A DNA stretch of 64,000 nt from Spongiibacter marinus. GTDB taxonomy: Bacteria; Pseudomonadota; Gammaproteobacteria; Pseudomonadales; Spongiibacteraceae. Location of the stretch: positions 124,001 through 188,000 of the forward strand of contig NZ_JAFBBD010000007.1 of the NCBI RefSeq assembly GCF_016906995.1, written 5' to 3'. The notes under the pieces were generated by a model. That model worked only from the letters and a program-made list of their open reading frames with translations. It made no database searches and was not told where the DNA came from. Shown in pieces: positions 36,763-58,109 of this stretch (its first letter is position 1; every line of letters begins with the position of its first letter). The translations under genes and the position numbers were made by a program.

Positions 36763-37503
36763 CTACTGCGCGCTGATTCGAGTTGGTTCGACCGGTGACG
36801 TTACGCGGCGTTGACCGCCGGGGTAGCTCACTACCATGCGCCCACCCATAATGCGGTAGGTAAACTGCTCTCGCCATTCGCCGCGGTCATCGGCAAATAG
36901 AATCTTGCCATTTTCCGCCTTCCAGCGGTGACTCTCGGCGTGGCTGCAAGGGTCTTGGTAGCTGGAGGCGCGTCGGCTATCTATCATTCTCGTCGCCTCA
37001 CAGGCGGTGCCGTCGGCGCGAAAGTGAATGCTCCACTGCTCGCCCATGTAGGGGTTGTCGATGCTGCCGCCGAGCTTCGTGTCACTGCTCCAGGTACCAA
37101 TAAGCGCGTCGTCCACGGCGGCCAGTTGGTCATTGGCCGACAGGGTATAGCGCTCGCCGTCCAGTGTGAGTGCCACACTGTCCTGGCCGATGCGGGTTAG
37201 GCTGAAGGGTTTTTCTTCTGCCATCGCGCTGGCGCGCAGCGGTTTATAGCTACCGGTAATGACCGTGCCGTTTACGCTGCCCAACAGGATATAGCGGTTG
37301 AGGGCATCGCCCATCTGCAACTTGGCGCTGATCATTGACGGGAAGCTACGCCCCGAATCGATGTGGAGCATCCAGGTTTGTCCGTCGACGTCTGAACTAT
37401 AGCGCTTCCGAAAGCCCTCCGTGCTCGCCGACGCACACAGCGGCGAGAGCAACAGGCTCAGCAGTCCAAGGTGGGTAAGCACTGCGGGAATTGTCCGTTT
37501 CAT
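36763..37503 (-). CDS. Exported protein of unknown function
   Basis: A 246-residue protein with a clear signal peptide (MKRTIPAVLTHLGLLSLLLS, cleavage near CASA). I do not recognise the family. The mature part is beta-rich, with two cysteines (GTACEATR and DPCSHAES) that may form a disulfide, and a repeated lipocalin-like feel: LIGTWSSD followed by GEQWSIHFRADGTA and MVVSYPGGQRR. Such GTW...F..DGT patterns occur in small beta-barrel ligand binders, but this is inference. It converges on the ketopantoate reductase gene. Confidence 0.7.
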   Translation of the reverse strand: MKRTIPAVLTHLGLLSLLLSPLCASASTEGFRKRYSSDVDGQTWMLHIDSGRSFPSMISAKLQMGDALNRYILLGSVNGTVITGSYKPLRASAMAEEKPFSLTRIGQDSVALTLDGERYTLSANDQLAAVDDALIGTWSSDTKLGGSIDNPYMGEQWSIHFRADGTACEATRMIDSRRASSYQDPCSHAESHRWKAENGKILFADDRGEWREQFTYRIMGGRMVVSYPGGQRRVTSPVEPTRISAQ

Positions 37504-37604
37504 TTGTCCCCCTAATAATTATTAAACGTCGGGGCAATTCGCATAGCACACTTTATAGCATTTGCGCCACAAAGCCGAGTCCCATTTTGGGGCGGCAATG
37601 TGTT

Positions 37605-37632
37605 GTGCGATCAGAGTGATGTGCGATCAGAG
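37605..37632. repeat. 12-bp tandem duplication at the end of cobB
   Basis: GTGCGATCAGAG occurs at 37605-37616 and again at 37621-37632, separated by TGAT. The second copy contains the cobB stop codon. This looks like a small replication-slippage duplication; no function is evident. Confidence 0.8.
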
Positions 37633-46407: not shown

Positions 46408-47685
46408 ATGAACTCTCAGCACTATCGCAGCGATGGGCGCGCCTATTACGCCCTATTTATTTTAACCATTGTTTATAGCTTCAACTTTATTGATCGCCAG
46501 CTGCTGGCGATTTTGCAGGAGTCGATCAAGGCTGAATTACTGCTGAGCGATACCCAGCTGGGGCTGTTAACAGGCTTTGCCTTTGCGCTGTTCTATGTCA
46601 CGGCAGGGATTCCCATTGCCCGCTGGGCCGATGCGGGAAACCGCAGAAATATTGTCGCCCTGGCGGTGTTTATCTGGAGCTTTATGACGGCCATCAGTGG
46701 CTTAGTCCAGAATTACCTGCAATTGTTAATGGCGCGAATTGGTGTTGGCGTTGGCGAGGCCGGTGGCAGCCCACCATCGCATTCGATGATTTCTGATATG
46801 TTCCCGGCGGAGCGCCGCGCTTCGGCGCTGGGTTTCTATTCCACGGGCGTCAGCATTGGCATCTTGTTCGGTTTTTTAATGGGCGGCTGGCTGAATGAAT
46901 TTTTTGGTTGGCGGGTAGCGTTTTTTGTCGTGGGTGTGCCGGGTGTTCTGCTGGCAGTAGTGGTGCGCTATACCCTGCGCGAACCGCGTCGCGGTTTGTC
47001 CGAGAATCGCGATGACAACCCCGAACCCGTTGCCGTTAAAGAAGTGGTGGCGCTGCTGTGGTCGCGGCGCAGTTTTCGGCATATGGCCTGGGCTGGTGCC
47101 CTGAGCGCCTTTGCCGGTTATTCGGTCGCCAATTGGTCGGCGTCTTTTATTATTCGTAGTTACGGCATGAGCACCGGGGAGCTGGGTACGTGGCTGGCGC
47201 TCATTATTGGTATTGGTGGTGCGGTCGGGGTGTTCGGTGGCGGTTTGCTGGCCGATAAACTCGCCTCTAAAGACACGCGTTGGTACGTGTTGTTGCCGGC
47301 ATTGGCCGGTGTGATTTCACTGCCTTTTGCCGCCGGGGTTTACTTGGTCGACAATGTCTATGCCTCGCTGTTGTTAATGATTATTCCCGCCATACAGTCC
47401 AATGTGTTTTTAGGAAATACGCTGGCGGTTAGTCATTCACTTGTAGGCTTGCGTATGCGGGCGATGGCCTCGGCCATCCTGTTTTTTATCTTCAATTTGG
47501 TGGGCTTGGGTGCCGGGCCCTGGTCTGTCGGCCTGCTCAGTGACCTATTGGCACCGCAATTTGGCGATGAGTCGCTGCGCTATGCCATGCTGGCACTGGT
47601 GCCATTGATGGTGAGTTTATCGGCGTTGCACTTTTATCTGAGCAGCCGCCACCTGAAGCGCGACCTCGCAGCCGCCCCGCCGTGA
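46408..47685 (+). CDS. MFS transporter, Spinster-like
   Basis: A 425-residue major facilitator with twelve predicted helices. The N-terminus AYYALFILTIVYSFNFIDRQLLAIL and the ARIGVGVGEAGGSPPSHSMISDMFP segment in helices 4-5 are typical of the Spinster-type branch, common in marine bacteria that use hydrophobic carbon sources. IARWADAGNRR is the helix 2-3 loop motif. It follows the flavoprotein and DUF1330 genes and probably imports or exports their substrate. Confidence 0.85.
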   Translation: MNSQHYRSDGRAYYALFILTIVYSFNFIDRQLLAILQESIKAELLLSDTQLGLLTGFAFALFYVTAGIPIARWADAGNRRNIVALAVFIWSFMTAISGLVQNYLQLLMARIGVGVGEAGGSPPSHSMISDMFPAERRASALGFYSTGVSIGILFGFLMGGWLNEFFGWRVAFFVVGVPGVLLAVVVRYTLREPRRGLSENRDDNPEPVAVKEVVALLWSRRSFRHMAWAGALSAFAGYSVANWSASFIIRSYGMSTGELGTWLALIIGIGGAVGVFGGGLLADKLASKDTRWYVLLPALAGVISLPFAAGVYLVDNVYASLLLMIIPAIQSNVFLGNTLAVSHSLVGLRMRAMASAILFFIFNLVGLGAGPWSVGLLSDLLAPQFGDESLRYAMLALVPLMVSLSALHFYLSSRHLKRDLAAAPP

Positions 47686-47746
47686 GTCTGGCCGGTACCG
47701 TCATCGTCGGCATTCACGTACACTTTGCGAGCATGTATTTGAAGAC

Positions 47747-48760
47747 GTGGCGATGAATACGATCGACCCCAATTGGACCGTTAACAGCACCAGTATTCGC
47801 AGTATTGCCCAGGCGATTGCCGCACTGGGTGGCGACAGTGAAGCGCTGCTGAGATCGGTCGGTATCCTGCCGGAAGCCCTTAGTGACGCCGAGGCTCGAC
47901 ACCCTGTGTCGGCGATGCATCGCTTGTATGAGCTTGCCGCTCAGCACTGCGGCGAAGATATTGGCCTCTACACCGGCCGTGTGGACTATATCAGTCGTCT
48001 GAATATGCAGCTCTACACCTGTGGCGTGTGCGAAACCTTCCGCGACTACTTGAATCTGATGCCCAGCGTGCTGCATTTTGCTGGTGATATCGGCGAGGTT
48101 CGCATTCGCCGCGAAGATGAACGCCTGCGCTTGGATTGGCTGCCCCTGTGGGAGGCATCGGCTCGCTGGCGGTATCAAAGTGACTGTCTGCTGACCACCT
48201 CTGCAGCTATTGTGCGCTCGCTGTGTGTGCGGCCAATTCCCGTGTTGCGCGCCCACTTTAGTTACCCAAAGCCCGCTAATACCGACTTGCTGGAAAGCAT
48301 TTTTGGCTGCGACCTGCATTTTTCCCAGCCGCGTAGTTCTCTGTATTTCGATGTGGCGAGCCTCGACTATCGCCTTGTTCAGTTGGACTCGGAATGGAGT
48401 ATGTCGATCCGGCAATCTACCCAGCATTTATTCGGCGAAGGTGAGCCTGATCCGGTATTGCGCTCGCTGCGCAACACCTTGATAAAAATGCTGCCAGCGG
48501 GTGGGGTGACTATCGATAAAACAGCCGCCGCGCAGAATATATCCCGGCGCACTTTGCAGCGGCGACTGGCCGACAGCGGGACCCAGTTTGGCCAAGTGCT
48601 GCAAGAGCTGCGCAGTGAATTGGCATTGCAGTATCTCAGTGATGAGCGCTTGAGTATTACCGATATCGCGCTGCTGCTGGGCTATGCCGACCACGGCAGT
48701 TTTTCCAGCGCCTTCAAAGCGTGGTTCGGCAAGTCGCCGCGAGAACATCGCCGTAAATAA
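47747..48760 (+). CDS. AraC-family regulator with Arabinose_bd (OruR-type) domain
   Basis: A 337-residue regulator. The N-terminal ligand-binding half (SIAQAIAALGGDSEALLRSVGILPEAL, HPVSAMHRLYELAAQHCGEDIGLYTG) is the PF12625-like type seen in OruR/ArgR-type AraC proteins. The C-terminal domain has the two helix-turn-helix motifs, ending with SITDIALLLGYADHGSFSSAFKAWFGKSPREHRR. It lies directly upstream of, and on the same strand as, the Atu-like operon. Start is GTG at 47747 or ATG at 47753. Confidence 0.88.
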   Translation: MAMNTIDPNWTVNSTSIRSIAQAIAALGGDSEALLRSVGILPEALSDAEARHPVSAMHRLYELAAQHCGEDIGLYTGRVDYISRLNMQLYTCGVCETFRDYLNLMPSVLHFAGDIGEVRIRREDERLRLDWLPLWEASARWRYQSDCLLTTSAAIVRSLCVRPIPVLRAHFSYPKPANTDLLESIFGCDLHFSQPRSSLYFDVASLDYRLVQLDSEWSMSIRQSTQHLFGEGEPDPVLRSLRNTLIKMLPAGGVTIDKTAAAQNISRRTLQRRLADSGTQFGQVLQELRSELALQYLSDERLSITDIALLLGYADHGSFSSAFKAWFGKSPREHRRK

Positions 48761-48765
48761 CGCCT

Positions 48766-48800
48766 TCTGGCACCAAATATCTCCTAGTCTGGCACCAAAT
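48766..48800 (+). promoter_or_regulatory. Pair of direct repeats, probable AraC-family operator
   Basis: TCTGGCACCAAAT occurs at 48766-48778 and, identically, at 48788-48800. The period is 22 bp, two helical turns, as expected for one AraC-type protomer on each repeat on the same face of DNA. The second repeat ends where a -35 element would be, the typical position for direct contact with RNA polymerase. The adjacent AraC-family gene is the obvious partner. Confidence 0.78.
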
Positions 48801-48823
48801 CCTAAGCGCGCCCCAACAGAGCT

Positions 48824-48829
48824 TATAGA
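48824..48829 (+). promoter_or_regulatory. -10 element of the Atu-like operon
   Basis: TATAGA matches consensus at five of six positions and lies 23 bases after the second direct repeat. The hexamer in the -35 position (CCTAAG) is poor, which fits a promoter that depends on an activator. Confidence 0.6.
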
Positions 48830-48865
48830 CTGAGTAGGCTAATAATGACTAACTCAGGAGTTCGC

Positions 48866-50041
48866 ATGTCACTGGATTTTGACGGCGCCCGTCTACACAA
48901 CCCCTACCTCAATGCCGAGCACGAAGCATGGCGAGTGCAACTACGTAAATTTGTCGACGCTGAAATCAGCCCGTTTCTCGACGACTGGGAAGAGGCGGGA
49001 AAGATTCCCGATGAATTGTGGGCCAAAGCGGCGGATATCGGTTTGCTCCAGCTCGGCTACCCCGAGGCCTATGGCGGCATTTCCGAGGGTATTGACCAAT
49101 GGCATATCAATATTGCCAACGAAGAGATCACCCGAGCGGGCAGCGCCGGGGGCTTGATCAGTAATTTGCTGGTGCACGGCATTGGCTTACCACCCGTGAC
49201 GAACTGCGGCAGTGATGCGCTGAAAGAAATGGTTGCACCGCGCGTGTTAGCCGGTGAAAAGCGAATTTCACTGGGAATTACCGAGCCTTCCGGTGGCTCG
49301 GATGTTGCCAACATCCAAACGACGGCCAAGCGCGATGGCGATCACTACATTGTGAATGGCAGTAAAACCTTTATCTCCGGAGTCATGGGAGCGGATTGGG
49401 TGAGTACCGCTGTACGCACGGGTGGCGAAGGCGCTGGCGGTGTTTCGATGCTGCTGATTCCCACCGACCTGCCCGGCGTTTCGCGCACTCCCCTGGACCG
49501 CAAGCAGGGGTGGTGGTGTGCCGATACCGGCACCATTTATTTTGACGATGTTCGCGTGCCCGCCGAGTATTTGATCGGGGAAGAAGGGCACGGCTTTCTC
49601 GTCATCATGAGTAACTTCAACCCAGAGCGACTAAGCCTGATTGTCACCATGGAAGCGGCCGCTCGCGCCTGCCTGGAAGATGCCGTGGAGTGGGCGCGCA
49701 ATCGCAAGACCTTCGGCAAACGCCTGGCCGACCACCAAGTGATTCGCCACAAGATTGCTGCGATGAAGCAGCGCATAAATGCCACCCAGTGCTACCTCAA
49801 TTATTTAACCCAAGCCTATATAGAAGGGCGCTGCGACCCGGGTGACCTGGCAATGGCCAAGGTTCAAGCCAGCGAGACCATGGAGTTTTGCGCCCGTGAA
49901 GCCAGCCAAATTTTAGGCGGGGCCTGCTACTTGCGCGGCAACCGCGTTGAACGCTTTTACCGTGAAGTGAGAGTGAACGCGATCGGCGGCGGTTCCGAAG
50001 AAATCATGCGTGAGCTGGCGTCGCGCCAATACCGTTTGTAA
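48866..50041 (+). CDS. Acyl-CoA dehydrogenase (first)
   Basis: A 391-residue FAD-dependent acyl-CoA dehydrogenase. Motifs include SLGITEPSGGSDVANIQTTA, KTFISGVMGADW, FFDD-like YFDDVRVPAEYLIGEEGHGF, and the C-terminal GGGSEEIMRELASRQYRL where the conserved Glu acts as base candidate. It is the first gene of the AraC-controlled operon. The ATG at 48866 has AGGAG upstream. Its substrate is presumably a branched acyl-CoA. Confidence 0.9.
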   Translation: MSLDFDGARLHNPYLNAEHEAWRVQLRKFVDAEISPFLDDWEEAGKIPDELWAKAADIGLLQLGYPEAYGGISEGIDQWHINIANEEITRAGSAGGLISNLLVHGIGLPPVTNCGSDALKEMVAPRVLAGEKRISLGITEPSGGSDVANIQTTAKRDGDHYIVNGSKTFISGVMGADWVSTAVRTGGEGAGGVSMLLIPTDLPGVSRTPLDRKQGWWCADTGTIYFDDVRVPAEYLIGEEGHGFLVIMSNFNPERLSLIVTMEAAARACLEDAVEWARNRKTFGKRLADHQVIRHKIAAMKQRINATQCYLNYLTQAYIEGRCDPGDLAMAKVQASETMEFCAREASQILGGACYLRGNRVERFYREVRVNAIGGGSEEIMRELASRQYRL

Positions 50042-50050
50042 GGAGTTGTT

Positions 50051-50725
50051 ATGAGCAGTGAAAAACCCACGCTGTGGCACTGTTACCCGTCCCGTTCATT
50101 GCGGCCATTGTGGGCGATGGAAGAAATGGGTATCGACTACGAGCTGGTAAACCTGGCCTTTCCGCCGCGCATGTTCCAGCGCGAGTACCTTGAGACTAAC
50201 CCCCTGGGGACGGTGCCTTTCTTCCGGGACGGCGACGTGGAGATGACCGAGTCCTCCGGTATTTGTCTCTATCTCGTTGAACAATACCAGCGCTTTGATT
50301 TCGGTCTGCGCGTTAGCGACCCCGGCTACGGCGATTACCTGAACTGGCTGTTTCACAGTGATGCGACCCTGACCTTCCCGCAGACCATTGTCCTGCGGTA
50401 TTCGCAGCTGGAACCGCCGGAGCGCCGCCTGCCCCAGGCAGTTGAAGATTACAGCAAGTGGTACCTGGCGCGATTAAAGCGCGTGAATAGCCATTTGCTC
50501 GACCGTGAATACCTGTGCGACGACCGCTTCACCATTGCCGATATCGCGGTTGGCTACGCGCTGTATTTGGGCAAGGGGCTGGGGCTGGATGCGTTCTACG
50601 AGCCCCAGGTTACGGCTTACCTCGAGCGCCTGATGGCGCGCCCGGCGTTTCAACGCGCCGAGCCGATGGGCGCGGGGCCAAACAGTTTCGTCCCCACGCC
50701 CTATCCCTTTGAAGGCTGTTTTTAA
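50051..50725 (+). CDS. Glutathione S-transferase-like protein
   Basis: A 224-residue two-domain GST. The thioredoxin-fold half starts TLWHCYPSRSLRPLWAMEEMGIDY, with NPLGTVPFF and the ESSGICLYL glutathione-binding motif; the helical half has DDRFTIADIAVGYALY. A Ser of CYPSRS is the likely catalytic residue. GSTs are unusual in Atu-type operons. It may detoxify a reactive unsaturated intermediate or act as an isomerase. Its ribosome site is AAGGAG, nine bases after the previous stop. Confidence 0.85.
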   Translation: MSSEKPTLWHCYPSRSLRPLWAMEEMGIDYELVNLAFPPRMFQREYLETNPLGTVPFFRDGDVEMTESSGICLYLVEQYQRFDFGLRVSDPGYGDYLNWLFHSDATLTFPQTIVLRYSQLEPPERRLPQAVEDYSKWYLARLKRVNSHLLDREYLCDDRFTIADIAVGYALYLGKGLGLDAFYEPQVTAYLERLMARPAFQRAEPMGAGPNSFVPTPYPFEGCF

Positions 50726-50751: not shown

Positions 50752-51909
50752 ATGATTTTGACAGAAGAGCATCAAAAGTTGCGCGATACCGTGGCGCAGT
50801 TTGTCGACAAAGAAATAAACCCCCACGCCGATGCCTGGGAAGCGGAGGGGATTTTCCCCGCCCATGAATTGTTTAAAAAAATGGGCGACCTGGGCCTGCT
50901 GGGCATTTCGAAACCGGTGGAATACGGCGGCCTCGGTCTGGATTACAGCTACCAAACGGTATTTTCAGAGGAGCTGGGTAGGATTACGACCGGCGGTGTA
51001 TCGATGGGCATCGGCGTACAAACTGATATGGCAACGCCGGCGCTGGCAAAGTTCGGCAGCGATGAACTGCGTCGCGAATTTCTCACGCCTGCGATAAGCG
51101 GGGACGCGGTGTTCTCCATTGCGGTGAGTGAACCCCATGCCGGTTCCGATGTGGCGGCGATTAAAACCACCGCCCGCAAAGACGGCGACGACTACATTGT
51201 CAATGGCAGCAAAATGTGGATCACCAATTCCACTCAGGCGGATTATCTCTGCCTGCTGGCCAATACCAGCGAGGGTAAGGCGCACAGCAATAAATCGCTG
51301 ATAGTCGTGCCGACTAACACGCCGGGCGTGTCCTTTTCGGAGCGCTTGAACAAGTTGGGCATGCGCTCATCCGATACCGCGCAGGTGTTCTTTGACGATG
51401 TTCGCGTACCCCAGCGCAATCGCATAGGTGAAGAGGGGCAGGGCTTTATCTACCAGATGCTGCAATTCCAGGAAGAGCGCCTGTATGCCGCCGCGGGGCA
51501 ACTCAAGGCCATGGAAGCCTGCATCAACCAAACCATTGACTATGCCCGCGAGCGCGAAATATTTGGTGAGCCACTGCTGAATAATCAAGTGGTTCACTTT
51601 CGCATGGCAGAGTTGCAGTCCGAAGTTGAAGCGCTGCGCGCGCTGACCTATAGCGCGGTGGAGGAATATATCCACGGAAGCGACGTGACCATGAAGGCGT
51701 CAATGGCCAAGCTCAAAGCGGGCCGCCTCGCCAGAGAAGTGACCGATGCCTGCTTACAGTATTGGGGCGGCATGGGCTTTATGTGGGACAACCCCATCTC
51801 TCGCGCCTACCGCGATACGCGGCTCACCTCCATTGGTGGCGGCGCAGACGAGGTGATGCTGGGCATTATCTGTAAATTGATGGGTACCCATCCGGGCCGC
51901 AGAAAGTAG
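50752..51909 (+). CDS. Acyl-CoA dehydrogenase, citronellyl-CoA dehydrogenase (AtuD)-like
   Basis: A 385-residue acyl-CoA dehydrogenase that I recognise as AtuD-like. MILTEEHQKLRDTVAQFVDKEINPH, GGVSMGIGVQTDMATPAL, NKSLIVVPTNTPGVSF and DACLQYWGGMGFMWDNPISRAYRD resemble my memory of citronellyl-CoA dehydrogenase of P. aeruginosa. This enzyme would introduce the double bond that enables carboxylation of the gamma methyl group by the next gene products. The ATG at 50752 has GGAG upstream. Confidence 0.85.
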   Translation: MILTEEHQKLRDTVAQFVDKEINPHADAWEAEGIFPAHELFKKMGDLGLLGISKPVEYGGLGLDYSYQTVFSEELGRITTGGVSMGIGVQTDMATPALAKFGSDELRREFLTPAISGDAVFSIAVSEPHAGSDVAAIKTTARKDGDDYIVNGSKMWITNSTQADYLCLLANTSEGKAHSNKSLIVVPTNTPGVSFSERLNKLGMRSSDTAQVFFDDVRVPQRNRIGEEGQGFIYQMLQFQEERLYAAAGQLKAMEACINQTIDYAREREIFGEPLLNNQVVHFRMAELQSEVEALRALTYSAVEEYIHGSDVTMKASMAKLKAGRLAREVTDACLQYWGGMGFMWDNPISRAYRDTRLTSIGGGADEVMLGIICKLMGTHPGRRK

Positions 51910-51929: not shown

Positions 51930-53543
51930 ATGGCGATATTAGAGTCTTACATCGATCGACACGCCGATGCTTTTCAGCGTAATGCCAAGGTTATGGGGGC
52001 GGCCGTTGATGAGTTTCGAGACATCGAACAGCGAGTGATTGCCGCAGCTGAGAAAAAAGTACCGCGTTATCGCGAGCGCGGCCTTATGCCGCCGCGCGAG
52101 CGTTTAAGTGCCTTGCTTGATGTGGGTACCCCCTTTCTCGAACTGTCGACCCTCTGCGGCTATATGCAGGAAGAGGATCGCGATGGCAGTGCCGCCGGCG
52201 GAAGCTGCATTACCGGTATCGGTTATGTGGCGGGCGTTCGCTGCATGATTATGGTCGATGATTATCTCACTAAGGGCGGCAGCATTACGCCGCTGGGCAG
52301 TGCCAAGCGTCAGCGGATGATGCGTATCGCGATCGAGAACAAGCTTCCGGTGCTCACCCTGGCGCAAAGTGGCGGCGGTAACCTAAAGCTGCTCGGTGAC
52401 TTTTTCGGGCCGTCCGGTGCTGGCTTTGCCGTGCAGGCAAAACTGTCGGCGATGGGCATTCCGCAAATTACCGTGGTGCACGGCAGTGCAACCGCTGGCG
52501 GCGCCTATCAACCCGGCTTGTCCGACTACGTCATTATGATACGTCGTCAGTCCACCGTATATCTCGCCGGCCCAGCACTGCTTAAAGCGGCAACCGGCGA
52601 AGAGGCCAGCGACGAAGAGATTGGCGGCGCGGAGATGCACGCGGAAGTCGCCGGTACCGCGGACTATCTCGCCGAAAACGACGCCGATGGTATTCGCATT
52701 GCCCGGGAAGTTGCGGGCAAGCTCGACTGGGACAAACGCTTGCAGGCCAGTGCGGAAGTGGCCTATGCCGAGCCGCATTTTGATGCTGAGGAACTGCTCG
52801 GTATTGTGCCCGAAGACCCCAAAACGCCCTACGACGTGCGCGAAATTATTGCGCGCATTGCCGACGATTCAGACTTCCTGGAATTCAAAAGTGCTTTCGA
52901 TGTTGGCACGGTCTGCGGTCATATGGCGATTCAAGGTATTGCCTGTGCAGTGATTGGCAATAACGGCCCGATTACTGCCAAGGGGGCGGCGAAGGCCGGG
53001 CAATTTATTCAGCTTTGCGAGCAGTCCCAAACGCCGATAGTTTTTCTCCATAACACCACCGGCTTTATTGTCGGCACCGAAGCGGAACAGGGCGGGATCA
53101 TCAAGCATGGCTCGAAACTGATTCAGGCGGTCACCAATGCGTCTGTGCCCAAAATCAGTATTGTTGTCGGCGGTTCCTACGGCGCGGGGAACTACGCGAT
53201 GTGCGGCCGCGGTATGGAGCCACGCTTTATGTTCGCATGGCCACGCAGTGTGGTTTCGGTGATGGGGCCGGCCCAGGCGGGCAGCGTGATGCGTCAGGTT
53301 GCCGAGGCGAAAATGCGCCGCGCCGGGCAGGTGAGTGAAGAGATGCTCGATGCGCTGGAGAAAGACACCGTGGATACCATGGCGGCGAAGTCGCACGCCC
53401 TGGCCAATACCGCACGCATGTGGGATGACGGAATTATCGACCCTCGTGATACACGCAGTGTGCTGGGTTTTGTACTCGATATTTGCCGCGACGCCGATGC
53501 CCGTCAGATCACGGCCAACACCTTCGGCATTGGCCGTTTGTAG
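51930..53543 (+). CDS. Acyl-CoA carboxyltransferase beta subunit (geranyl-CoA/3-methylcrotonyl-CoA type)
   Basis: A 537-residue biotin-dependent carboxyltransferase of the LiuB/AtuC family. It has KVPRYRERGLMPPRERLSALLD, the acyl-CoA site AQSGGGNLKLLGDFF, and HGSATAGGAYQPGLSDYVIM. The SGG(A/G)NL region is followed by a shorter stretch than in the 3-methylcrotonyl-CoA carboxylases I recall. With an AtuA-like gene downstream, a geranyl-CoA carboxylase-like activity is more likely than MCC. Its biotin partner is the product encoded at 54376. Confidence 0.85.
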   Translation: MAILESYIDRHADAFQRNAKVMGAAVDEFRDIEQRVIAAAEKKVPRYRERGLMPPRERLSALLDVGTPFLELSTLCGYMQEEDRDGSAAGGSCITGIGYVAGVRCMIMVDDYLTKGGSITPLGSAKRQRMMRIAIENKLPVLTLAQSGGGNLKLLGDFFGPSGAGFAVQAKLSAMGIPQITVVHGSATAGGAYQPGLSDYVIMIRRQSTVYLAGPALLKAATGEEASDEEIGGAEMHAEVAGTADYLAENDADGIRIAREVAGKLDWDKRLQASAEVAYAEPHFDAEELLGIVPEDPKTPYDVREIIARIADDSDFLEFKSAFDVGTVCGHMAIQGIACAVIGNNGPITAKGAAKAGQFIQLCEQSQTPIVFLHNTTGFIVGTEAEQGGIIKHGSKLIQAVTNASVPKISIVVGGSYGAGNYAMCGRGMEPRFMFAWPRSVVSVMGPAQAGSVMRQVAEAKMRRAGQVSEEMLDALEKDTVDTMAAKSHALANTARMWDDGIIDPRDTRSVLGFVLDICRDADARQITANTFGIGRL

Positions 53544-53551
53544 GAGGCAGC

Positions 53552-54379
53552 ATGTTACCCGAATGTAAAGAATTGCTGCTGTCGCTGGACGGCGGCGTAT
53601 TGTCGATCACCCTCAACCGGCCCCATAAGCGCAACGCCATGAACAAAAGGCTTGTCGACGAAATGCGCGCAGTATTCGCCGCCATCGCCGAGCACCGTAG
53701 TGTGCGCGCCGTGGTGTTGCGCGGCGCAGAGGGGAATTTTTGTGCGGGCGGCGATATTGCCGGCATGCACGACGGCGCGGTAGACGAAGCGGGCAAACCC
53801 TTGTCCCCGGATAAGGCAGCCTGGCAGTTTAACCGTAGCTTCGGTCACCTTATCACCGAGGTAAATAAGGCTCCCCAGGTCGTTATCACGATCTTGGAGG
53901 GCGCGGTGTTAGGCGGCGGTTTTGGTCTGGCCTGTGTCTCGGATATTGCGATTGCCAAAGCCGATGCCAAATTTGCCATGCCGGAAACTGGCCTGGGCAT
54001 TGTGCCCGCGCAGATTGCGCCTTTTGTGGTGATGCGGGTGGGGCTGACGCAGGCACGGCGCTTGGCATTAACCGGGCAGCGCATCGACGGCGCTGAAGCG
54101 CAGCGCCTCGGCCTGGTGCATTTCTGTGCGGACAGCAACGACGACGTTGACGCGCAGTTAAACAACCAACTCTCTGCGTTGCGGCGCTGTGCACCGGCAG
54201 CAACTGCGCTTACCAAGTCGCTACTTCTTGATGTCGGCACTACCGCACTTGAACCGCTTTTAGACCACGCTTCAGATCTTTTTGCCCAATGCCTGAATGG
54301 GCCAGAGGGCAAAGAGGGGACGCAGGCATTTATCGAAAAGCGCAAACCCAGCTGGTATTCGGAACGGGGAACAGCATGA
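53552..54379 (+). CDS. Enoyl-CoA hydratase (AtuE-like)
   Basis: A 275-residue crotonase-fold hydratase. It has LNRPHKRNAMNKRLVDEMR, FCAGGDIAGM forming the oxyanion region, and GAVLGGGFGLACVSDIAIA with FAMPETGLGIVP. Candidate catalytic Glu residues are in ILEGAVLGGG and MPETGLG. In Atu/Liu clusters the corresponding enzyme hydrates a glutaconyl-type intermediate. The ATG at 53552 has GGAGG; its stop overlaps the next start. Confidence 0.87.
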   Translation: MLPECKELLLSLDGGVLSITLNRPHKRNAMNKRLVDEMRAVFAAIAEHRSVRAVVLRGAEGNFCAGGDIAGMHDGAVDEAGKPLSPDKAAWQFNRSFGHLITEVNKAPQVVITILEGAVLGGGFGLACVSDIAIAKADAKFAMPETGLGIVPAQIAPFVVMRVGLTQARRLALTGQRIDGAEAQRLGLVHFCADSNDDVDAQLNNQLSALRRCAPAATALTKSLLLDVGTTALEPLLDHASDLFAQCLNGPEGKEGTQAFIEKRKPSWYSERGTA

Positions 54380-56337
54380 CCGCATTGCACAAAATACTGA
54401 TCGCCAACCGCGGCGAAATTGCCGTGAGGGTAATACGCAGCGCTAAACAAATGGGCTATCGCACCGTCGCCGTATTTAGCGATGCCGACGACAATGCCCC
54501 CCATGTTCAGCTTGCTGATGAGGCCGTGAATATCGGTCCGGCGGCTGTGTCGGAGTCGTATTTGCGCGTGGACGCCATTATTGACGCCGCGACAAAAACG
54601 GCAGCAGATGCGATTCACCCAGGCTACGGTTTTCTCTCAGAAAATGCTGACTTTGCCCGCGCGTGTCAGGCGGCGGGTATCACTTTTATCGGTCCATCCA
54701 GCGACGCGATTGAATTGATGGGCAGCAAACGCTTGTCGAAGTTGGCAATGATAGCCGCTGGTGTGCCCTGTGTGCCTGGGTATGAAGGCGACGATCAGAG
54801 CGACGAGCGCTTGGTGGCCGAAGCAGAGCGCATTGGTTTTCCAATTATGGTCAAGGCCTCGGCGGGCGGCGGCGGACGCGGTATGCGGCTGGTTGATCAT
54901 GCGGCTGATTTGCCGGAGCAACTGCGCAGCGCCCGATCAGAGGCTTTGTCAGCCTTCGGCAGTGACGAGCTGATTCTGGAGAAGGCGGTACAGCAGCCGC
55001 GCCATGTCGAGATACAGGTTTTCGCTGACAGCCAGGGCAATGCCATTCATTTAGCCGAGCGCGACTGCTCGGTTCAGCGCCGCCATCAAAAGGTGGTTGA
55101 GGAAGCGCCATCGCCCTTTGTCGATGACGCTTTGCGCCAGCGCATGGGCGATGCCGCCGTTGCGGCGGCCAAGGCCTGCAATTACCGCGGTGCGGGTACG
55201 GTCGAGTTTTTGGTCGATGCTCAGGGCAGTTTCTATTTTTTAGAAATGAACACGCGCCTGCAGGTTGAGCACCCGGTGACGGAAATGGTTACCGGTGTTG
55301 ACTTGGTGGAATGGCAGCTGCGTATTGCCAGTGGCGAGCCACTGCCGATGGCGCAATCCCAGCTCCGCCTCAATGGTCACGCGGTTGAAGTGCGCCTGTA
55401 TGCCGAGGAGCCGCGTCAGCAGTTTATGCCGCAAACCGGCCGCATTGCCCGCTGGCAAGTGCCGCAGGGGCCGGGGCTGCGACTGGATAGTGGGATTAGC
55501 GAAGGGCAGCTTATCGGCGCCCATTATGACCCCATGCTGGCCAAGCTGATTTGCTGGGCGCCGAGCCGTGAAGAGGCACTGCGGCGTTTGGCGTCGATGT
55601 TGCAAGATACGGTATTGCTGGGCATCAATAACAACCTGCAGTTTTTGCAGGCGGTGCTGCGCCATCCGAGTTTTATTGCCGGTGATGCCACCACAGCCTT
55701 TATCGCCGAGCATGGTGAGCAGTGCACACCGCCGCCTGAGCCTGGCACTGCCAGCCTGGCAAGGGCGGCGGCGGTGCTATATGAATGTAATGCCGCAGCG
55801 GCCAAAACAGCGCCTGCCTGGCGGCGCAGCGCCCCGGCAAGCTGCGTTTTCACACTTGCTTGGGAAGGGCAGGAATACCGCATCGAACTGGTTGCGATGG
55901 GTAGGCAACGCGAATTCAGTATTGCCGGTCAGCGCCATACCCTGCAGGTGGCAGCTAGCGATGCCCAATCCTGCGTTATTGAAGAGGATGGCGTGCGGCG
56001 GCGCATCCACTTTGCGCGCAATGGCAAGCAGCTGTTCCTAGATGACGGCAGCGGCCACTTCATTTTCGACGATACCAGCCACGCGGCCGCCAAAGCGGAT
56101 GCGGCCGCCGGCAGCGGCTTGCTGAAAGCGTCTATGGACGGCGCCATTGTGGACGTTGTTGTTGCAGAGGGTGAGCGCGTCAGCCGTGGGCAAACCCTGG
56201 TCGTGTTGGAGGCGATGAAAATGGAGCACCCGCTAAAGGCAGACATGGACGGCACGGTAGCGGCAATCCACTGCCAAGCGGGCGATCAAGTGAAGTCGCG
56301 GCAATTGCTTGTCGAGCTGAATGAGGAGGCGCTATGA
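54376..56337 (+). CDS. Acyl-CoA carboxylase alpha subunit (biotin carboxylase + carrier)
   Basis: A 653-residue protein fusing a biotin carboxylase (residues 1-450: [67 protein letters not shown]) to a middle linker and a C-terminal biotinyl domain (ending with VLEAMKMEHPLKAD, whose Lys receives biotin). It is the AtuF/LiuD type and is separate from the housekeeping accC/accB. Start overlaps the hydratase stop, and its end overlaps the AtuA start, giving full operon coupling. Confidence 0.92.
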   Translation: MTALHKILIANRGEIAVRVIRSAKQMGYRTVAVFSDADDNAPHVQLADEAVNIGPAAVSESYLRVDAIIDAATKTAADAIHPGYGFLSENADFARACQAAGITFIGPSSDAIELMGSKRLSKLAMIAAGVPCVPGYEGDDQSDERLVAEAERIGFPIMVKASAGGGGRGMRLVDHAADLPEQLRSARSEALSAFGSDELILEKAVQQPRHVEIQVFADSQGNAIHLAERDCSVQRRHQKVVEEAPSPFVDDALRQRMGDAAVAAAKACNYRGAGTVEFLVDAQGSFYFLEMNTRLQVEHPVTEMVTGVDLVEWQLRIASGEPLPMAQSQLRLNGHAVEVRLYAEEPRQQFMPQTGRIARWQVPQGPGLRLDSGISEGQLIGAHYDPMLAKLICWAPSREEALRRLASMLQDTVLLGINNNLQFLQAVLRHPSFIAGDATTAFIAEHGEQCTPPPEPGTASLARAAAVLYECNAAAAKTAPAWRRSAPASCVFTLAWEGQEYRIELVAMGRQREFSIAGQRHTLQVAASDAQSCVIEEDGVRRRIHFARNGKQLFLDDGSGHFIFDDTSHAAAKADAAAGSGLLKASMDGAIVDVVVAEGERVSRGQTLVVLEAMKMEHPLKADMDGTVAAIHCQAGDQVKSRQLLVELNEEAL

Positions 56338-58109
56338 GTCGTTCGTCAGTACGTATTGGCTGTGCCTCGGCGTTTTACGGCGACAGCCAGCTTGCGGCGC
56401 GGCAGTTGGTAGACAAAGGCGAGCTGGACTACCTGGTTTTCGACTACCTGGCCGAAGTGACCATGGGGATACTTGCCAAAGCCCGAGCCCGGGATGAACG
56501 GCTGGGTTTTGCCGTGGACTTTGTCACCGTTGCCATGCGCGATGTGATGGCAGACTGCGCTGCCAAACGGATTAAGATTATTGCCAATGCCGGCGGCGTA
56601 AATGTGCCCGGCTGCATTGCCGCCCTACAGTCCTTAGCCCAGGAGCAGGGCCTACAGCTCAATATTGCCGGTGTGTATGGCGATGACTTACTGTCACGCA
56701 GGGAAGAATTTGCCCGCGAGGGCCTGAGCGACATGCAGAGCGGCGCACCGCTGCCCGACAAGCTTGCCAGTATGAATGCCTACCTCGGGGCTCAGCCCAT
56801 TGCCGAGGCGCTGGCCGCCGGCGCCGATATCGTAGTGACCGGTCGCGTGGTGGACAGTGCGGTGGTAATTGCGCCACTGATGCATGAATTCGGCTGGAGC
56901 TGGCAGGACTACGACCGCTTGGCGCAGGCGGCTTTGGCCGGGCACGTACTGGAATGCGGCGCCCAGTGTACCGGCGGTAACTTTACCGACTGGCACCAAG
57001 TGCCGGACTTTTCCACGATGAGCTATCCCATTGCTGAGGTTGCGGCAGAGGGCGATTTCATTGTGACCATTCCACCCGCGACCGGCGGTTTGGTCAACCG
57101 CGCCACTGTCGCTGAGCAGATCCTCTATGAAATTGGTGATCCGGCAAACTACCTGTTGCCGGATGTTGCCTGTGACTTCAGTGATGTGCGCTTGGACGAG
57201 GTCGGCGAAAACCGGCTTAGGGTGAGCAATGCCAAGGGCCGTGCGCCCGGCGATAGCTACAAGGTCTGCGCAACCTGGGTGGACGGTTATCGCTTGATGG
57301 GCAGTGCCTTTATCGGCGGGCTGCGCGCTGCCGAAAAAGCGCGCTGTAGCCTTGACGCTTGGTTACAACGCTGTCGTGGTGTTTTTAAAGAACGCGCTTG
57401 GGAAGACTTTCGCGATGTCAGCATCGAAGTCATTGGAGCCGAGGACACCTATGGCCGTCACGCGCGCGATACGGCTAGCAGGGAGGTGATGGCCAAATAC
57501 GGTTTGCACCACAACAGCCGCGAGGCGCTTACCTTCGCCGCCAACGAGTTCGCCTATCTCGCGACCTCGGCGGCACCGGGCATGAGTGGCTTTGGTGCTG
57601 GCCGAGCCAAGCCCGGCCCATTGATTCGCATTCACTCGTCGCTACTCGCCAAAGACCGTGTTCCCGTCACCGTACAAATGGGCGATCAGCGCTTGAGTGA
57701 GCGCAGCTACCCAACGCCAGGTTCCAGCCCCGCGGTCGGTAGCCGTTACTCATCACTGGCTGTCAGCGAGGGTGTCGACTGCCGCGTGCCGCTCGAGCAA
57801 CTGGCTTACGCGCGCAGCGGCGACAAGGGTAATAACGCGAATATCGGTGTGATTGCGCGCCGCGAGTGTTATTTGCCGTACATCGCCCAAGCCCTGTCGG
57901 AGAGCGCCGTGGCGGAGTACTTCGAGCATCTGCTAGATGGCGATGTACACCGCTTTGATGTGCCGGGTTTCCACGCCTTTAACTTTTTGTTGCGCGACGC
58001 GTTGGGCGGAGGCGGCAGTGCCTCGCTGCGGGTGGATTCGCAGGGCAAAGCGCTGGCGCAAATGCTGCTGTCGATGGACGTGGCAATCCCGCGACACCTG
58101 CTTGATTAA
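56334..58109 (+). CDS. AtuA-like (DUF1446) acyclic terpene utilisation protein
   Basis: A 591-residue protein of the AtuA type. The N-terminal DUF1446 domain starts with VRIGCASAFYGDSQLAARQLV and contains DYLVFDYLAEVTMGILAKAR, GADIVVTGRVVDSAVV, and GHVLECGAQCTGGNFTDW. The C-terminal domain contains LAYARSGDKGNNANIGVIAR. In P. aeruginosa AtuA is required for growth on citronellol, but its exact reaction is not settled. Presence together with carboxylase subunits is the main reason to call this an Atu-like operon. It is the last gene before a 71-base gap. Confidence 0.9.
   Translation: MSRSSVRIGCASAFYGDSQLAARQLVDKGELDYLVFDYLAEVTMGILAKARARDERLGFAVDFVTVAMRDVMADCAAKRIKIIANAGGVNVPGCIAALQSLAQEQGLQLNIAGVYGDDLLSRREEFAREGLSDMQSGAPLPDKLASMNAYLGAQPIAEALAAGADIVVTGRVVDSAVVIAPLMHEFGWSWQDYDRLAQAALAGHVLECGAQCTGGNFTDWHQVPDFSTMSYPIAEVAAEGDFIVTIPPATGGLVNRATVAEQILYEIGDPANYLLPDVACDFSDVRLDEVGENRLRVSNAKGRAPGDSYKVCATWVDGYRLMGSAFIGGLRAAEKARCSLDAWLQRCRGVFKERAWEDFRDVSIEVIGAEDTYGRHARDTASREVMAKYGLHHNSREALTFAANEFAYLATSAAPGMSGFGAGRAKPGPLIRIHSSLLAKDRVPVTVQMGDQRLSERSYPTPGSSPAVGSRYSSLAVSEGVDCRVPLEQLAYARSGDKGNNANIGVIARRECYLPYIAQALSESAVAEYFEHLLDGDVHRFDVPGFHAFNFLLRDALGGGGSASLRVDSQGKALAQMLLSMDVAIPRHLLD

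Follow-up and report, generated by a model that had tools for sequence, protein, structure and literature searches.

A conserved direct repeat before an acyl-CoA dehydrogenase operon as the probable operator of the adjacent AraC/XylS-family regulator

The repeats recognised by XylS at the Pm promoter of the TOL plasmid follow one another with a 21-bp period and overlap the -35 element. They are described as 15-bp direct repeats in which TGCA is followed, after 6 bp, by GGTA (PMC5481539). Another AraC/XylS-family activator, the 335-aa protein APR1 of Acinetobacter venetianus, is reported to activate almA, a gene of hydrocarbon catabolism, when it binds a hydrophobic ligand (PMC11784139). The acyclic-terpene-utilisation (atu) cluster of Pseudomonas is, in the description given by PMC9973270, under a TetR-type repressor, AtuR, with two 13-bp inverted repeats. 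Among the papers listed in searches of the literature available without subscription, judged by titles and abstract openings, none deals with control of an atu cluster by an AraC-type regulator.

The locus described here lies in a window of 64 kb, by which we mean the whole stretch of DNA that was analysed, and resembles the XylS/Pm system in that a catabolic operon is preceded by two head-to-tail repeats, in each of which 6 bp separate a box A from a box B (Table 1). It differs in that the boxes are TGGC and TCCC instead of TGCA and GGTA, the regulator carries a PF12625 N-terminal domain, and the operon concerns acyl-CoA compounds rather than benzoate. With the AtuR system it shares a regulator of an acyclic-terpene-utilisation cluster and AtuC-, AtuF-, AtuE- and AtuA-like genes, whereas here an AraC-type protein would act on direct repeats, the predicted operator. 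APR1, going by its published description, belongs to the same AraC/XylS family and has a hydrocarbon catabolic target, but that target is a monooxygenase and its ligand an n-alkane; QhpR, GliR, CdpR and VirS are AraC-type proteins that supply the nearest NCBIfam models or solved structures. The system is not of a new kind; it is a solid but unremarkable example of a familiar class of gene switch. The best explanation of the repeat, to which we assign a probability of about 0.87, is that it is the operator through which the adjacent AraC/XylS protein would activate the acad1 operon. The site itself, its half-site structure, its conservation, its fixed distance from the -10 hexamer, the scarcity of such sites in the genome and the coupling of the site to this AraC protein are all computed results.

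Table 1. Coordinates of the regulator gene, the predicted operator and promoter, and the downstream genes (window positions)
Feature	Position	Strand	Remarks
AraC/XylS-family regulator gene (araC)	47753..48760	+	ATG 47753, upstream GTG 47747; N-terminal PF12625 (Arabinose_bd), C-terminal HTH_18
Distal half-site TGGCACCAAATATC	48768..48781	+	box A 48768-48771; box B position 48778-48781, weak here (TATC)
Proximal half-site TGGCACCAAATCCT	48790..48803	+	box A 48790-48793, box B 48800-48803
-35 position, TAAGCG	48803..48808	+	17-bp spacer; poor match to TTGACA
Conserved -10, TAGACT	48826..48831	+	36 bp downstream of proximal TGGC; kept across species
acad1, acyl-CoA dehydrogenase	48866..50041	+	first gene of the putative controlled operon; synteny
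gst, glutathione-S-transferase-like	50051..50725	+	follows acad1 in 15/15 family loci with an adjacent araC-acad1 pair
acad2, second acyl-CoA dehydrogenase	50752..51909	+	
atuC-like carboxyltransferase	51930..53543	+	best solved match geranyl-CoA carboxylase beta subunit 5ikl, 732 bits
atuE-like, enoyl-CoA hydratase family	53549..54379	+	
atuF-like biotin carboxylase / biotin carrier subunit	54376..56337	+	best solved match methylcrotonyl-CoA carboxylase alpha 3u9s
atuA, acyclic terpene utilisation family	56334..58109	+	PF07287, 470 bits

A first-pass annotation of this DNA had pointed to identical 13-bp direct repeats 22 bp apart, with an AraC-family gene ending just upstream and a catabolic operon starting just downstream, and both observations hold: TCTGGCACCAAAT occurs in two exact copies, at 48766-48778 and 48788-48800 with starts 22 bp apart, in the 105-bp intergenic region between the end of araC at 48760 and the acad1 ATG at 48866, which also contains an AGGAG at 48856-48860. 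These two copies are the only perfect ones in the window, and the exact repeat has a single occurrence in the window's own 3.57-Mb genome. When up to three mismatches are allowed the window holds 20 matches against 18.9 expected, so that the 13-mer by itself is not enriched. Exact non-overlapping 13-mer direct repeats within 60 bp are found only twice in the window (the other pair starts at 37604/37620). Chance would not be expected to produce such a repeat: none appeared when the window was shuffled 60 times with its dinucleotides preserved, nor in 5000 shuffles of the intergenic region.

The family comparison comprised 21 genomes, 16 of which contain an orthologue of the AraC protein at E <= 1e-30. 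In 15 of these 16 araC stands directly before acad1 on the same strand, the exception being G017, and the direct repeat is present in all 15 intergenic regions so defined, with a start-to-start period of 21 or 22 bp across the family operators. Absence of the repeats from close relatives with the same operon had been named beforehand as an observation that would speak against an operator; on comparison the repeats were present in all 15 adjacent loci and also in G017. An unguided alignment of the 15 regions brought the distal TGGCAC and the proximal TGGC into register in every one of them, in the midst of otherwise poorly alignable DNA. Beyond these genomes, a contig search confirmed only one locus, the near-identical one of Neomelitea salexigens DSM 19753, the AraC protein of which is 99% identical to that of the window; this is the closest record with a name, and NCBI places it in Spongiibacter marinus. 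An acad1-like paralogue within the same genome (G000 C1:309196, 67% identity) has no site (score -5.9, with 58 of 500 shuffles scoring as high), so that genes of this enzyme family do not carry the site as a rule. A loose sequence pattern used alone proved too weak as a search tool, since it matched all 21 genomes, and its reversed control still matched 20 of them.

As judged from the aligned operators, the conserved unit is an asymmetric 14-bp half-site, TGGC-N6-TCCC, repeated with a period of 21-22 bp, so that the operator comprises two direct repeats separated by about two turns of the helix, each divided into two sub-boxes. The 13-mer of the earlier description thus stands as a repeat pair and not as the unit that is kept: the two half-sites of the window genome differ at 3 of 14 positions, and exact copy identity is not the feature retained across species, the stretch over which the copies agree being 13 bp long in G011 as in the window genome, 14 bp in G010, 19 bp in G020 and between 5 and 10 bp in each of the remaining 12 genomes. 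When the half-sites of 21 operators were pooled (42 half-sites), the consensus was TGGCACCAATTCCC. TGGC is invariant in all 42, but the search expressions themselves fixed TGGC; the informative positions are 5 (A 33, G 9), 6 (C 36, T 6) and 9 (A 35) together with the core of box B (position 12, C 39; position 13, C 36), positions 7, 8, 11 and 14 being weaker. Two sub-boxes ten base pairs apart are what would be expected if one AraC-family monomer reads two successive major grooves, and the asymmetry of the half-site likewise fits a monomer with two HTH motifs. A palindromic reading, in which TGGCACCA resembles TGG-N2-CCA, was also considered and the direct-repeat reading preferred, because positions 7 and 8 are less well kept (C 27 and A 27 of 42) than positions 12 and 13 (C 39 and 36); the outer positions of box B, 11 and 14, are with 28 each of 42 no better than 7 and 8.

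The proximal half-site lies next to a poor -35, the first base of which is its own last base, and at a fixed spacing from a -10 hexamer. In 25 promoters, the best TAnnnT hexamer was sought between 28 and 43 bp after the proximal TGGC, and it was found 36 bp away in 17 of them and 37 bp away in the other 8. Three further two-box promoters conform to the same rule (G011, 36 bp; gst of G166, 37 bp; a weak atuA site of G252, 37 bp), such that the hexamer stands at 36 (18 cases) or 37 bp (10 cases) in all 28 two-box promoters measured. The second repeat copy had been said to abut the poor -35 of a TATAGA promoter. The poor -35 beside the proximal half-site is borne out; TATAGA is present at 48824-48829 but is 2 bp out of register with TAGACT, the hexamer conserved across species, which replaces it as the probable -10. 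A consensus scan for sigma-70 promoters found none between 47600 and 49000, where shuffles give 0.8, so that this absence says little alone. A nearly consensus-free -35 adjoining the proximal half-site is the layout of an activator-dependent promoter, from which we infer activation. The proposal that this is an AraC-family activator site gains support from the comparison, the site being kept in 16 of 16 AraC-bearing family genomes and its distance to the -10 fixed.

How closely the site is coupled to the regulator may be seen from a sequence-only operator profile, which was made from 21 operators and run over the 21 family genomes, with 150 first-look candidates scored per genome. The site before acad1 gave the top match in each of the 16 AraC-bearing family genomes, at E values between 2.3e-8 and 4.8e-3, and no other match in these genomes was better than E 0.014; in the five family genomes without an AraC orthologue the best match is at E 0.0356 or worse, or there is none. 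Scores are partly circular where the profile contained the site scored, which applies to 13 of the 16 sites from the family and, among the nine positive genomes of the wider order, to the acad1 sites of eight; the sites outside the profile are those of G011, G004 and G012, which are close to profile members, together with G234, the unlinked acad1 of G283 and gst of G166. In leave-one-out scoring of 25 regions against mononucleotide shuffles, with near-identical relatives left in, only the G000 acad1 paralogue was reached by shuffles (58 of 500).

Among the five family genomes without the AraC orthologue, G014, G015 and G018 gave no acad1 at E <= 1e-120, so that only G001 and G003, the latter 70% complete, are informative negatives. 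Both possess acad1, with no AraC orthologue at E <= 1e-30, and each has one good box before acad1 (TGGCGCAATATCCC and TGGCGTGATATCCC; L065 and L064), 38 bp before a TACACT, with no distal box at a spacing of 21-22 bp. With two-box leave-one-out scores of 16.3 and 14.2, which none of 500 shuffles reached, they fall only slightly short of the weakest accepted site (G166, 17.6). G002, which belongs to the same genus and has the AraC orthologue, has two good boxes; the single boxes of G003 and G001 look as if they were decaying or used by another protein.

Cases in which regulator and target are apart separate the site from mere closeness to araC. In G017, where araC and acad1 are on different contigs, both boxes are still present before acad1 (leave-one-out score 26.6, reached by 0 of 500 shuffles); in G234 the site precedes an acad1 lying about 15 kb from araC; G283 has one acad1 with a site and its closest AraC relative 7 kb off, while another acad1 with a site adjoins an AraC paralogue; and in G166 a site precedes gst, beside an AraC relative. 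G166 and G283 also have one acad1 with a site and no gst or atu gene in the stretch compared. Across the order, 293 genomes were searched and an AraC relative at E <= 1e-50 was found in 28, 10 of them from the family. Of the 18 others, nine (G166, G173, G174, G215, G234, G272, G283, G290 and G295) carry, in front of acad1 or gst, a match to the profile with E <= 0.005, G150 (E 0.024) and G277 (E 0.035) have weak matches without a fitting gene, and G066, G088, G180, G201, G214, G220 and G252 have no match at E <= 0.05 despite the AraC relative. In G252 a smaller search gave a weak operator-like pair (L104 6313-6349, E 0.069) of TGGCGC 21 bp apart, about 80 bp before atuA and with TAAACT 37 bp on, where atuA is divergent from a distant AraC relative (38%); this pair is a possible direct link of the regulator group to Atu genes.

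The regulator has a two-HTH C-terminal domain (HTH_18, E 2.3e-20; HTH_AraC, 4.8e-9; both above cut-off) and a separate N-terminal domain, probably the effector domain, which matches PF12625 with 100 bits and has a predicted VirS-like fold. The nearest NCBIfam models, QhpR and GliR, remain far below their cut-offs (162 of 250 and 132 of 570 bits). In the predicted structure (mean pLDDT 85.4, pTM 0.73) the N-terminal domain superimposes on VirS residues 4-208 with a TM of 0.83 by target and an rmsd of 3.0; CdpR is the top hit by E-value (1.1e-13) of the fold search, with no superposition of the whole (TM 0.42/0.44, rmsd 17). According to its entry title, the VirS N-terminal fragment was solved in complex with a compound. 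The domain also gives weak fold matches to H-NOX chains. The Pfam name 'arabinose-binding' says little on the ligand. The recognition helix, SxRTLQRRL, is invariant in 32 aligned AraC relatives (L003, L018, L080, L085 and L086 left out), an invariance to which we give no weight because the aligned set includes proteins for which no operator was found.

The genes downstream indicate an Atu-type cluster, in that the carboxyltransferase is by a wide margin nearest to 5ikl and AtuA follows. For the AtuC-like protein the next solved matches are a chain labelled propionyl-CoA carboxylase beta (459 bits) and the methylcrotonyl-CoA carboxylase beta 3u9r (453 bits). The cluster accordingly combines a geranyl-CoA carboxylase (GCC) beta-like subunit with AtuA, while the best match of the alpha subunit is that of methylcrotonyl-CoA carboxylase, no GCC alpha being present among the best 60 of its 64 solved matches. 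The second NCBIfam match of the AtuE-like protein, gamma-carboxygeranoyl-CoA hydratase, reaches 168 bits against a cut-off of 426. In six family loci read far enough (the window, G001, G002, G003, G017 and G020) acad2 follows gst; G013 stands apart, having atuC-E-F-A directly after gst. AtuC-like genes at E <= 1e-180 are found in 5 of the 21 family genomes and 4 of the 16 with the AraC orthologue, the other 12 having no close AtuC; in G002 the gene is on another contig, and G014 has one without acad1 or the AraC orthologue. At the level of the order, Atu genes follow acad1 in G173, G272, G174, G290 and G215, and atuC lies behind acad1 in G283. A terpenoid or branched acyl compound as ligand is a reasonable, not compelling guess, which derives from the presence of the AtuC-like carboxylase subunit and AtuA in the operon and is weakened by the 12 of 16 genomes without a close AtuC. 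Further along in the cluster, an MmyB-like XRE regulator gene (PF17765, 58181-59011) precedes acad3-maoC-sdr and may control this second half.

On this basis we infer how the protein binds and activates, that the operon is co-transcribed as a whole, and what kind of inducer is involved, as follows. Two AraC monomers would bind head to tail, one per 14-bp half-site, the two HTH motifs of each reading TGGC and TCCC in successive major grooves, and the 21-22 bp between the half-sites would put both monomers on the same face of the helix. The proximal monomer would then lie against the -35 position of a promoter that has a fair -10 (TAGACT) and apparently no usable -35, and binding of an inducer by the N-terminal domain, perhaps an acyclic terpenoid, a branched-chain acid or the CoA ester of such a compound, would result in recruitment of RNA polymerase. 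The target would be acad1-gst-acad2 plus, in the window genome, the atuC-E-F-A genes behind them.

The operator might instead be bound by some other regulator, such as another AraC paralogue or the MmyB-like XRE protein of the cluster. The XRE gene is found in the cluster of the window, G020 and G001, the last of which retains it with one good box and without an AraC orthologue, and between 7 and 15 AraC matches at E <= 1e-12 were counted in each of the six family genomes probed for them. Nevertheless we consider this improbable, since two-box sites track the AraC orthologue, occurring in 16 of the 16 family genomes with it and in neither of the two acad1-bearing ones without it, and since a tblastn search at E <= 1e-15 gave no XRE homologue in the compared stretches of the operator-bearing G013, G173, G272, G174, G290, G215 and G017 (its acad1 stretch); moreover the half-site is asymmetric, whereas palindromic operators are usual for XRE proteins. 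A slightly smaller chance still is given to the AraC protein acting here as a repressor. The -35 position hardly matches the consensus, the site stops at this position and leaves the -10 uncovered, and the 36-37 bp to the -10 in 28 of 28 promoters are as fixed as for activators contacting the polymerase at -35, all of which tells against repression, even though the site touches the promoter and could physically block the polymerase. AtuR-type control found no counterpart, as AGCAAGCGCTTGG with up to two mismatches has 4 matches in the window against 4.0 expected, none of them by the promoter.

That the pair is a chance or non-regulatory repeat, a local duplication or part of an RNA element, is scarcely credible and, on the comparative evidence, in practice refuted by conservation. 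It might be argued from the existence of just two exact copies and the lack of enrichment of the mismatch pattern in the window; yet 0 of 5000 shuffles reproduce the repeat, the same pair precedes the same promoter in diverged genomes where the intergenic DNA is otherwise poorly alignable, and the site stays fixed to acad1 despite a 619-bp gap (G215) or a 38-bp inverted repeat (G002) after araC. An RNA element or terminator was rejected in view of the lack of an inverted repeat at the site, none of at least 10 being found in 48700-48900; the sole terminator-like match in 47600-49000 is inside araC (48685-48698), with 1.1 expected by chance.

If the repeat is the operator of the adjacent AraC protein, a regulator, a half-site, a promoter geometry and a target become available for a group of PF12625 AraC proteins, one of which would be linked to an Atu-type cluster of the sort described in Pseudomonas as being under the TetR repressor AtuR (PMC9973270). 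The ligand search would be narrowed to a few terpenoid and branched acids, and the regulator/operator pair could possibly serve as a sensor for terpenoid or branched acyl compounds. Tentatively, and at somewhat less than even odds, we suggest that in one group of marine gammaproteobacteria an AraC/XylS activator with a VirS-like N-terminal domain, sensing an acyclic terpenoid or branched acyl compound, replaces AtuR in the control of acyclic-terpene catabolism, acting through what is in essence a single operator per genome, and that in one lineage (f41) this operator may also have come to stand before a P450 gene and another acyl-CoA dehydrogenase. Moderately scoring second sites in f41 genomes occur before a P450 gene in G272 (L149, E 0.008) and before another acyl-CoA dehydrogenase in G290 (L146, E 2.7e-4) and G174 (L153, E 0.033); they are leads only to possible regulon growth. 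Further second sites in G234 (E 0.006), G174 (0.017 and 0.027) and G290 (0.022) were set aside, with no fitting gene at a fitting distance.

Some of the intergenic regions have features of their own. The 38-bp inverted repeat of G002 (L004 2500-2537; AGAGTTGGGGTCAGAGTA / TACTCTGACCCCAACTCT) is perfect, lies between araC and the intact operator and resembles a small inserted element that has left the operator in place. The 619-bp gap between araC and acad1 in G215 (L071 882-1500) contains many tandem CAGGGTGACAGGTTAAGTATGTT-like units, the operator being fixed to acad1. Elsewhere in the window, the second exact 13-bp direct repeat, TGTGCGATCAGAG (37604-37632, 16 bp start to start), occupies a gap between two minus-strand ORFs and is possibly upstream of the ORF at 36763-37503.
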